From assembly GCF_000383975.1 (NCBI RefSeq), contig NZ_KB913017.1, positions 1,341,101 to 1,405,100 on the forward strand: 64,000 nucleotides of DNA, read 5' to 3'. Below are positions 56,201 to 58,654 of the stretch, in pieces (the stretch's first letter is position 1; the number at the start of each line of letters is the position of its first letter). The DNA comes from Natronorubrum tibetense GA33. GTDB lineage: Archaea > Halobacteriota > Halobacteria > Halobacteriales > Natrialbaceae. The notes under the pieces were generated by a model that was given only the letters and a program-made list of their open reading frames with translations, was not told the origin of the DNA and ran no database searches. Both the position numbers and the translations under genes were made by a program.

Positions 56201-56247
56201 GAGATCGGCAAGCAGCGGACCTCACAGCCCGGTTGCAGACAATTTCG

Positions 56248-57105
56248 ATGAAGGACTTTCCACCGGTTCCGAACGTCACCGATGCCCCCGACCGACTGTT
56301 CGAGGAGGGGCACCTGTGGCTCCTCGAGAAGGTCGACGGAGCCGGGTTTCGCTTCCAACTCCAGCAGTCGGGCCTCCTCCGGTTCGGCGACCGGAACCGC
56401 GTATACGACGACCCCGATGCCGTTCCCGAGCCCTACCAGCACGCCGTTCGGCACGTTCGGGAGCACGTGGACCGTGAAGCGCTTCGGAGTGCCGTCGACG
56501 ACGTCGAGGACATCGTCTTCTTCGCCGAGGCGATGCACCACCACCGAATCTCGTACGACTGGGAGCGGACGCCGTCGGTTCTCGGCGTCGACGTCTGGTC
56601 GGCCGATGCGGGGAAATTCCGCCCGCCGGACGCCGTCGAAGCGATTTTCGAGGGGATCGGTCTCGAGCCGGTGAACGTCTTCGAACGGGAGTGTCGCGCC
56701 CAGTATTTCGACCCGGACTCGTACACGATTCCACAGTCCAACTGGTACGATGGCCCCGCCGAAGGCGTCGTCGTTCGGAACAAACGCGGCCAGCGCGCGA
56801 AAATACTCCATCCGGAAAGCCGAGAGCGCGACGGGCCCGAACCGATCGAGGCGTCGGCCGAGGAGGCGGCGACGACGTACGCGACTCGAGGGCGGTTCCG
56901 GAAACTCGCGATCCGACTCGAGGAACAGGGTCGGCCCGTGACGTTCGAGACGCTCTACGAGCGCGTCCTCGAGGATATCACTCGCGAGGCCCACGCCCGA
57001 CTCCACCACAGCCAGAGCGACGTGGAGATGGGGGACTTTCGCTCGGAAGTCGCCGCACTCACGCGGGAGTTCCTCGATGAGCGAACCGACGGCGCGGCGG
57101 GGTGA
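56248..57105 (+). CDS. RNA ligase (Rnl2-like) domain protein
   Basis: 285 residues from the ATG at 56248 (MKDFPPVPNVTD). The nucleotidyltransferase motif I is LLEKVDGAGFRF with Lys28 as the predicted adenylated residue; motif IIIa-like FFAEAMHHH, motif IV EGVVVRNKRG near 171 and motif V RAKILHPE follow. The family seals RNA ends with ATP. The C-terminal 90 residues are helical. It is 47 bp after RIO1 on the same strand. The natural RNA substrate (tRNA repair, introns, circular RNA) is unknown. Confidence 0.72.
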   Translation: MKDFPPVPNVTDAPDRLFEEGHLWLLEKVDGAGFRFQLQQSGLLRFGDRNRVYDDPDAVPEPYQHAVRHVREHVDREALRSAVDDVEDIVFFAEAMHHHRISYDWERTPSVLGVDVWSADAGKFRPPDAVEAIFEGIGLEPVNVFERECRAQYFDPDSYTIPQSNWYDGPAEGVVVRNKRGQRAKILHPESRERDGPEPIEASAEEAATTYATRGRFRKLAIRLEEQGRPVTFETLYERVLEDITREAHARLHHSQSDVEMGDFRSEVAALTREFLDERTDGAAG

Positions 57106-57209
57106 CGATTGCTCGAGTGTGAGAGCGATACTTTTGGCCGAATTCGAGAGCCTCTCGCTACTTCGCCTGCGATAGCCGTCGTCGAACACCACGCTGGTCC
57201 CAAACACTC

Positions 57210-57215
57210 TTTATC
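57210..57215 (+). promoter_or_regulatory. TATA element of the trpS2 leader transcript
   Basis: TTTATC lies 28 nt before the ATG of the Trp-rich leader ORF. At the usual archaeal spacing, transcription would start at or next to that ATG, giving a leaderless transcript whose first codons are the leader peptide. Confidence 0.6.
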
Positions 57216-57237
57216 GATCCGAATCGAGGTGTATCCG

Positions 57238-57321
57238 ATGGCGTCCACTCTCGAGTGGCGATGGCGCTGGCAGGATCCCTCGAGAGCGGACAGTACCCTC
57301 GCGGCTGGTGACGTGGCCTAA
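57238..57321 (+). CDS. Putative Trp-rich leader peptide upstream of trpS2
   Basis: A 27-codon ORF beginning MASTLE and containing W-R-W-R-W (TGG CGA TGG CGC TGG, 57256-57270), ending GDVA and TAA at 57319. CTCTCGAG (57248-57255) and CTCGAGAG (57279-57286) form a perfect 8-bp stem whose loop is exactly the stretch of Trp codons. A ribosome waiting for charged tRNA-Trp would open this stem. It ends 82 nt before trpS2. The product itself probably has no role. Attenuation or translational coupling is inferred; CTCGAG is common in this genome, so the stem alone proves little. Confidence 0.75.
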   Translation: MASTLEWRWRWQDPSRADSTLAAGDVA

Positions 57322-57403
57322 CCCGTCGGCTGTCGCGTCGGACGCTCCCTCTGCTCGTTTTGCACGTATCGACTTCCAGCCGCTGCAGTCAACCCCGAGA
57401 CGA

Positions 57404-58654
57404 ATGACAGAGCCAGACGAGACGCCAGACAGTACCGACAGCAGTAGCACAGCCGACTCGAGCGAATCGAACACCTGCGGTGAGTTCACCGTCACGCCCT
57501 ACGCCGTTGAGGGCGAAGTCGACTACGACAAGCTCCTCGAGCGCTTCGGTGCCGACCCGCTCACCGACGAACAAATCGCTCGCTTTCCCGACCATCCACT
57601 GCTCCGCCGCCGAACGTTCTACGCCGGCCGAGATGTCGATCGATATCTCGAGGCCGCCGCGTCGGGCGACCCGCACGCGCTCGTCACCGGCAGGGGGCCG
57701 TCGGGGCCGATGCACCTCGGACACGTCCTGCCGCTGTACCTCGCAAAGCGGTTGCAAGAGGCGACGGGCGCGACCGTCTACGTTCCGCTCTCGGACGACG
57801 AGAAGTTCCTCGCGAAGGACCAATCGTTCGCGTCGATCGGTGCGCACACGCGTGAAAACCTGCGTGATATCCTGGCCGTCGGCTTCGATCCCGAACGGAC
57901 ACGAATCGTCGTCGATACAGCCGACGCGGACGTGCTGTATCCGATCGCCGTTCGGCTCGCAACGCACCTCACGCCCGCGACGGTCGAAGCCGTCTACGGT
58001 CAGCAGGACACCGTCGGACTGCAGTTCTATCCTGCGGTGCAGGCGACTCACCTTCTGCTCCCCCAACTCGTTGCGGGCCGCCAGCCGACGCTGGTCCCCA
58101 TCGCTGTCGATCAGGACCCCCACGTTCGCGTCTGTCGTGACGTGGCCGCGAAAGAGGCCCTGCCCGTTGGGAAGCCGGGTGCCCTGCTCGGACGATTCCT
58201 CCCGGGTCTCGACGGCCCGGGAAAGATGAGCAGCTCCGGCGATGCACCATCGATCGAACTCACCGCGGACCCCGACACGGTCGCGGAAACGATCCGAACC
58301 CACGCCTATACTGGCGGGCAGGCGACGCTCAAGGGCCACCGCGAGCACGGCGGCGATCCGACCGTCGACGTCCCCTTCCAGTACCTGCGATTCTTTTTCG
58401 AGGACGACGACGAGCGACTCGAGCAAATCGCCGACGACTACCGATCGGGCGAATTGCTGAGCGGCGAATTAAAACAGATCGCGATCGACCGCATCACGGA
58501 GTTCCTGACCGGCCACCAGCAGCGACGTGCGGAACTCGGCTCGCTCGAGGCCGACCTCGAGCCCTACCGACTGACCGATCGCGAACGGCGGCGGGCGCTC
58601 GAGCGGGCCGGGGTGCCAGCAGGACTCGAGTCGGAAGGCGACCCGCGACGGTAG
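57404..58654 (+). CDS. trpS2: Tryptophan--tRNA ligase (second copy, leader-controlled)
   Basis: 416 residues from the ATG at 57404. VTPYAVEGEVDYDKLLERFG matches the N-terminal signature of archaeal/eukaryotic TrpRS. Class I motifs: SGPMHLGH (HIGH) near residue 101-107 and GPGKMSSS (KMSKS) near 273-277. It lacks the acidic extension of the first TrpRS at 11.8 kb and differs through most of its length, so they are old paralogues or one was acquired. The Trp-rich leader ORF lies 82 nt upstream. Confidence 0.92.
   Translation: MTEPDETPDSTDSSSTADSSESNTCGEFTVTPYAVEGEVDYDKLLERFGADPLTDEQIARFPDHPLLRRRTFYAGRDVDRYLEAAASGDPHALVTGRGPSGPMHLGHVLPLYLAKRLQEATGATVYVPLSDDEKFLAKDQSFASIGAHTRENLRDILAVGFDPERTRIVVDTADADVLYPIAVRLATHLTPATVEAVYGQQDTVGLQFYPAVQATHLLLPQLVAGRQPTLVPIAVDQDPHVRVCRDVAAKEALPVGKPGALLGRFLPGLDGPGKMSSSGDAPSIELTADPDTVAETIRTHAYTGGQATLKGHREHGGDPTVDVPFQYLRFFFEDDDERLEQIADDYRSGELLSGELKQIAIDRITEFLTGHQQRRAELGSLEADLEPYRLTDRERRRALERAGVPAGLESEGDPRR

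Follow-up and report, generated by a model that had tools for sequence, protein, structure and literature searches.

A conserved leader with in-frame tryptophan codons and alternative RNA pairings precedes tryptophanyl-tRNA synthetase genes in Halobacteria

Introduction

Attenuation by leader peptides is textbook knowledge for bacteria. One reported case concerns a tryptophanyl-tRNA synthetase (TrpRS): Vecchione and Sello reportedly described in 2010 that an auxiliary, indolmycin-resistant TrpRS of Streptomyces coelicolor is under Trp leader attenuation. T-box leaders of Gram-positive aminoacyl-tRNA synthetase (aaRS) genes bind tRNA directly and have no upstream open reading frame (uORF). For archaea, a search restricted to open-licence literature found no described case of leader-peptide attenuation; a preliminary description of the present locus knew of none in haloarchaea.

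Here we describe an element found mainly upstream of TrpRS genes in Halobacteria. Like bacterial trpL (Rfam Trp_leader), it has a short uORF in which Trp codons occur in tandem, lies upstream of Trp genes, and has a T run and alternative pairings with one common arm. Unlike trpL, it is archaeal, has a leaderless-type uORF and is used mainly on TrpRS, and one of its predicted pairings (P3, below) would not compete with a terminator stem but sequester a T-rich tract that lies outside a constant hairpin. The S. coelicolor case, although bacterial, is similar in that a leader peptide rich in Trp accompanies an auxiliary TrpRS gene. T-box leaders resemble the function proposed here in that they control aaRS genes according to tRNA charging, but the haloarchaeal element has a uORF. 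Rfam, including Trp_leader and T-box, gave no match to the element, only a sub-threshold tRNA-Sec on the other strand. The element also resembles the T-stretch/TC terminators of Haloferax volcanii in that a hairpin is followed by a T-rich tract containing C, but those lie mostly at gene ends and are not described as regulated leaders (PMC7237163). Systems of this kind are known from bacteria; the setting in archaea, the leaderless-type uORF, the topology and the wide use on TrpRS appear to be new as far as the open-licence literature goes.

The trpS2 leader

The window is a stretch of 64,000 nucleotides from Natronorubrum tibetense GA33, to which all coordinates of this section refer; every feature lies on the forward strand. 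The preliminary description had pointed to a mini-ORF with Trp codons, a TATA-like element, a stem, a T run and the distance to trpS2, and on rereading the window all of these coordinates hold. By direct reading, the mini-ORF (57238-57321) has 27 codons and encodes MASTLEWRWRWQDPSRADSTLAAGDVA followed by a stop. Its three Trp codons, at 57256, 57262 and 57268 (57256-57270 together), are the proposed sensor and are exactly the Trp codons carried in the loop of a perfect 8-bp stem, CTCTCGAG (57248-57255) with CTCGAGAG (57279-57286). The trpS2 ATG (57404) lies 82 nt past the mini-ORF stop; the gene (57404-58654, NCBIfam NF008927) encodes a tryptophanyl-tRNA synthetase that we take to be auxiliary. 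The gene 5′ of the leader (56233-57105) carries an RNA_ligase domain (PF09414) and is itself preceded by a RIO1 kinase gene.

The 8-bp stem is real, but it is only the inner part of a conserved architecture of two helices (P1 and P2) and a T-rich tract that reaches to about 57362. The stem continues outward past a single A-C mismatch (57247/57287) into TCC/GGA, so that P1 has the 5′ arm TCCACTCTCGAG (region 1, 57244-57255) and the 3′ arm CTCGAGAGCGGA (region 2, 57279-57290). The P2 hairpin (57292-57346) is closed by AGT (57292-57294) with GCT (57344-57346), and its apical GGCCTAACC (57315-57323) includes the mini-ORF stop. Region C (57344-57361), the conserved pyrimidine tract GCTCCCTCTGCTCGTTTT, ends in the T run 57358-57361, a putative termination site. 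Within region C, TCTGCTC (57350-57356) is an alternative partner for GAGCGGA (57284-57290) of the P1 3′ arm; this predicted pairing is P3.

Upstream, a BRE-like AAAC and a TATA-like TTTATC occupy 57202-57215 (-36 to -23 from the mini-ORF ATG), with TTTATC beginning 28 nt 5′ of the ATG. This promoter is position-locked across the 163 leaders assembled below, whose mean AT content peaks at -36 to -34 (BRE), -30 to -26 (TATA) and -11 relative to the mini-ORF ATG. Haloarchaea, whose transcripts are mostly leaderless, are known to have BRE, TATA and -10 elements (PMC4983044). Since the AT peaks match these elements, we infer that transcription starts at the mini-ORF ATG and that the mRNA would begin at the AUG of a leaderless-type uORF, although the 5′ end has not been mapped. 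The locking of the promoter to the ATG thus favours the leaderless mini-ORF that had been suspected from the TATA spacing alone.

Conservation of the mini-ORF across Halobacteria

The collection of TrpS2 homologues covered 125 family genomes and 391 class genomes. With further regions added there were 152 loci in all, which after orientation gave 145 TrpS2 leaders; these together with 18 leaders of TrpS1 form the counted set of 163 TrpRS leaders. Mini-ORF starts were picked by script and a few are uncertain. Counts are inflated by sequence kinship, and the Fisher and shuffle figures given below carry no correction for it.

The element of Trp mini-ORF and stem is confirmed far beyond chance. 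Mini-ORFs contain one to four Trp codons, with at least one in 163/163 TrpRS leaders and at least two in 151. Among the 145 TrpS2 leaders TGG occurs 328 times in frame compared to 47 out of frame, and throughout the counted set TGG is kept while the codons between Trp codons change. From the start codon onward, the two arms of P1 enclose the Trp codons, and GCTCMCT and then a pyrimidine tract rich in T come further downstream; the 3′ arm ends in AGYGGACAGT, near-invariant in the 145 leaders, and the spacing from AGT to GCTC is 48 or 49 nt in 130 of these. Start codon and P1 3′ arm share one frame in 151/163 TrpRS leaders. In members whose peptide ends in GERTVS, the nucleotides of GAGCGGACAGT are preserved in a different reading frame, from which we conclude that the 3′ arm is conserved as RNA and the Trp codons as codons. 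The check over Halobacteria that the preliminary description had proposed therefore finds ORF, Trp codons and stem all conserved.

Some members deviate. One leader (L006) has TGA instead of TGG at its second Trp codon, a natural loss or a sequencing error, which would truncate the mini-ORF. Five others (L073, L074, L080, L081 and L096), whose TrpS2 is about 63-65% identical to that of the window, have a shorter mini-ORF of the type MSTSPETDERRWR plus stop with a single Trp codon.

Base pairing in the leader

P1 and P2 were tested for covariation on an alignment of 62 diverse leaders (A1). In this set 84.9% of the cells are paired, compared to 38-45% when the arms are slid, 18 pairs are changed on both sides, and covariation is 0.239 compared to 0.137 for shuffled alignments; none of 500 shuffles reaches the observed value on any measure. 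In single folds P2 is closed in 95/97 leaders with a mean z of -2.7, and P1 has a mean z of -2.8. RNAalifold on the first alignment returned P1 only without RIBOSUM scoring and both P1 and P2 with it. In most members the length of P2 hardly varies and its apex carries GGCNUMACC, which pairing alone does not explain.

The segment from the P1 3′ arm to region C has P3, the pairing of these two, as its consensus fold, with 82.7% paired compared to 52-64% when slid and a covariation score of 1/500. A partner-swap test gave a small effect (3/2000), after which P3 was retested by pair counts and by a Y:R contrast. Region C has A opposite AGU arms in 7/39 cases and opposite AGC arms in 0/119 (Fisher p = 3.6e-5, uncorrected for kinship), a contrast that involves six changes on the TrpS2 tree. 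Support for the predicted P3 is thus moderate by pair counts and clearer by Y:R contrast, and the pairing is imperfect in some members. Because P1 and P3 share the 3′ arm they are mutually exclusive, and the leader has alternative pairings with a common arm, P1 being strongly and P3 moderately supported.

Besides P2, the leaders have the T-rich tract, with a T run of at least three in 95/163 TrpRS leaders compared to 16% of upstream windows. In the leaders of the window and its close relatives, P3 stops just short of the T run; in many other members the T-rich tract falls within P3.

Genomic distribution

TrpS2 is patchy, being present in 137/391 class genomes, whereas a distant TrpRS-like match of about 30% identity occurs in nearly all genomes of the family; we therefore take TrpS2 to be auxiliary. 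A covariance model of the leader (R1) matched 168 of the 391 class genomes, matches near 18-31 bits being noise and partly antisense. By our own count from the two lists, 132 of the 137 TrpS2 genomes have the leader and 5 do not. Another 27 strong matches lie in genomes without TrpS2. Of the 21 examined, 19 precede trpS1, a non-orthologous TrpRS gene (NCBIfam equivalog NF008928, as against NF008927 for TrpS2), and 2 precede GNAT genes. Nearly all genomes with the leader carry a single one, on either TrpRS. Halobacterium salinarum has the element before trpS2.

An exact-pattern scan of 84,980 prokaryote species found 76 loci, all in Halobacteria: 65 before TrpS2, 8 before TrpS1, 2 at contig edges and 1 before trpD-trpF-trpE. 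The last (L238, reverse strand, position 719) is in the metagenome-assembled genome (MAG) CSSed162cmA_517, its genes being named by reading their translations. In a relative of this MAG (G424, L315) the leader stands before TrpS2 instead. The genes downstream thus nearly always charge or make Trp, namely TrpS2, TrpS1 and, in one MAG, a trpDFE operon, and the copies before the non-orthologous TrpS1 and before trpDFE lend independent support to the idea of a Trp leader. Across the phylum, 247 genomes gave no matches outside the order of the window. A module model from the 3′ arm to region C (R2), run with positive controls, found none in 160 haloarchaeal genomes without an R1 match.

Discussion

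Comparison of the leaders demonstrates a mini-ORF with Trp codons in the loop of the predicted P1, followed by P2 and region C and nearly always upstream of TrpRS. We consider it probable that this element, placed in the 5′ part of TrpRS mRNAs, senses charged tRNA-Trp by ribosome stalling. No expression data are available, and stalling itself, the rise in TrpRS, the direction of control and its level, transcription or translation, are inferred.

Given the general footprint of the ribosome, one positioned on the last Trp codon would sit over the P1 5′ arm and leave the 3′ arm just clear. In 152/163 leaders the last Trp codon begins 11-18 nt 5′ of the 3′ arm, so a ribosome stalled there would block P1 and release the 3′ arm, so that P3 is favoured under starvation and P1 in its absence. 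When Trp-tRNA is plentiful, the ribosome would clear the Trp codons and P1 could reform; region C, beside P2, would then be free and could serve as an attenuator, with termination at the T-rich tract, perhaps assisted by FttA/aCPSF1. When Trp-tRNA is short, the ribosome would stall on the Trp codons and mask the 5′ arm of P1, leaving the 3′ arm free to pair with region C as P3, and the T-rich tract would be hidden so that transcription continues into the TrpRS gene. Shortage of Trp, or a block of the resident TrpRS, would then raise TrpRS through this readthrough.

Termination sites in H. volcanii consist of a T stretch with TC, some with upstream hairpins (PMC7237163), transcription-translation coupling in haloarchaea is supported (PMC8576121), and FttA-dependent termination with its possible exclusion by a coupled ribosome has been discussed (PMC11616081). 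Since region C resembles these sites and FttA may be excluded by a coupled ribosome, we propose region C as attenuator and P3 as antiterminator. This assignment is an inference, and the direction of control is not fixed by sequence. The model is further weakened by the moderate and in places imperfect P3, by the T run of at least three in no more than 95/163 leaders, by the TrpS2 genes without a leader (5/137) and by the TGA codon of L006.

The same sensor could be wired in reverse, with P2, P3 and the U run as terminator and P1 as antiterminator, or act on translation initiation or mRNA decay. In the window group a stable P3 and P2 run directly into UUUU, so this cannot be excluded; intrinsic termination at archaeal T stretches may also occur before region C has emerged, and in the examples read TrpRS starts about 50-65 nt past the beginning of region C. 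We nonetheless think it unlikely, since ribosomes stalled on Trp codons would leave the 3′ arm free and favour P3 on starvation, so that a terminator formed in this state would lower TrpRS, and since the T-rich tract falls within P3 in many members.

Two further explanations dispense with stalling on Trp codons. The constancy of P2 and of its apical motif would fit an RNA that binds a protein or tRNA directly, by TrpRS autoregulation or as a T-box-like sensor, with the mini-ORF incidental. Yet Trp codons are in frame in all TrpRS leaders, one RNA serves two non-orthologous TrpRS, copies before GNAT genes retain the RNA but lose the Trp cluster, and Rfam has no match, all of which makes direct binding very improbable. 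It is hardly tenable that a small protein made from the mini-ORF is the functional product and that the RNA pairing merely comes with it: a C-terminal R/GADS motif is common to many mini-ORFs, but the GAGCGGACAGT nucleotides persist in another frame and conservation tracks base pairing. The best explanation therefore remains an element functionally like bacterial trp attenuation, built from a different RNA and a leaderless uORF.

A conserved archaeal case would show that the logic of attenuation arose or persisted outside bacteria, in a setting where the mRNA is of the leaderless type, the RNA polymerase is eukaryote-like and the termination factor belongs to a different family. It would also offer a simple handle on archaeal transcription-translation coupling and factor-dependent termination.

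Copies upstream of other genes

Rare copies of the leader precede GNAT acetyltransferase genes in at least five genomes (L279 at 1500-1620, L280, L282, L284 and L320). These keep P1, P2 and region C around a mini-ORF without the Trp cluster, which agrees with the Trp codons serving the TrpRS genes. P1, P2 and region C are also kept in a copy before an MsbA-like ABC exporter gene (L286, near 3505 on the reverse strand), where the mini-ORF encodes MMSATGLGPVLWHGSTVADSALA followed by a stop. P1, P2 and region C may tentatively be read as an archaeal attenuator module with interchangeable sensor codons, Trp for TrpRS and trp genes and another stalling signal for the GNAT and ABC exporter genes, but we hold this to be possible rather than likely. 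This reading covers G132, G289, G311, G451, G041 (a different GNAT) and G328 (the ABC exporter). If true, such a module would be the first archaeal ribosome-stalling attenuation system and might respond to aaRS or ribosome inhibitors.

Finally, one leader copy (L285, 4500-4860) has only a remnant of TrpS2 downstream, 56 codons long and 62% identical.
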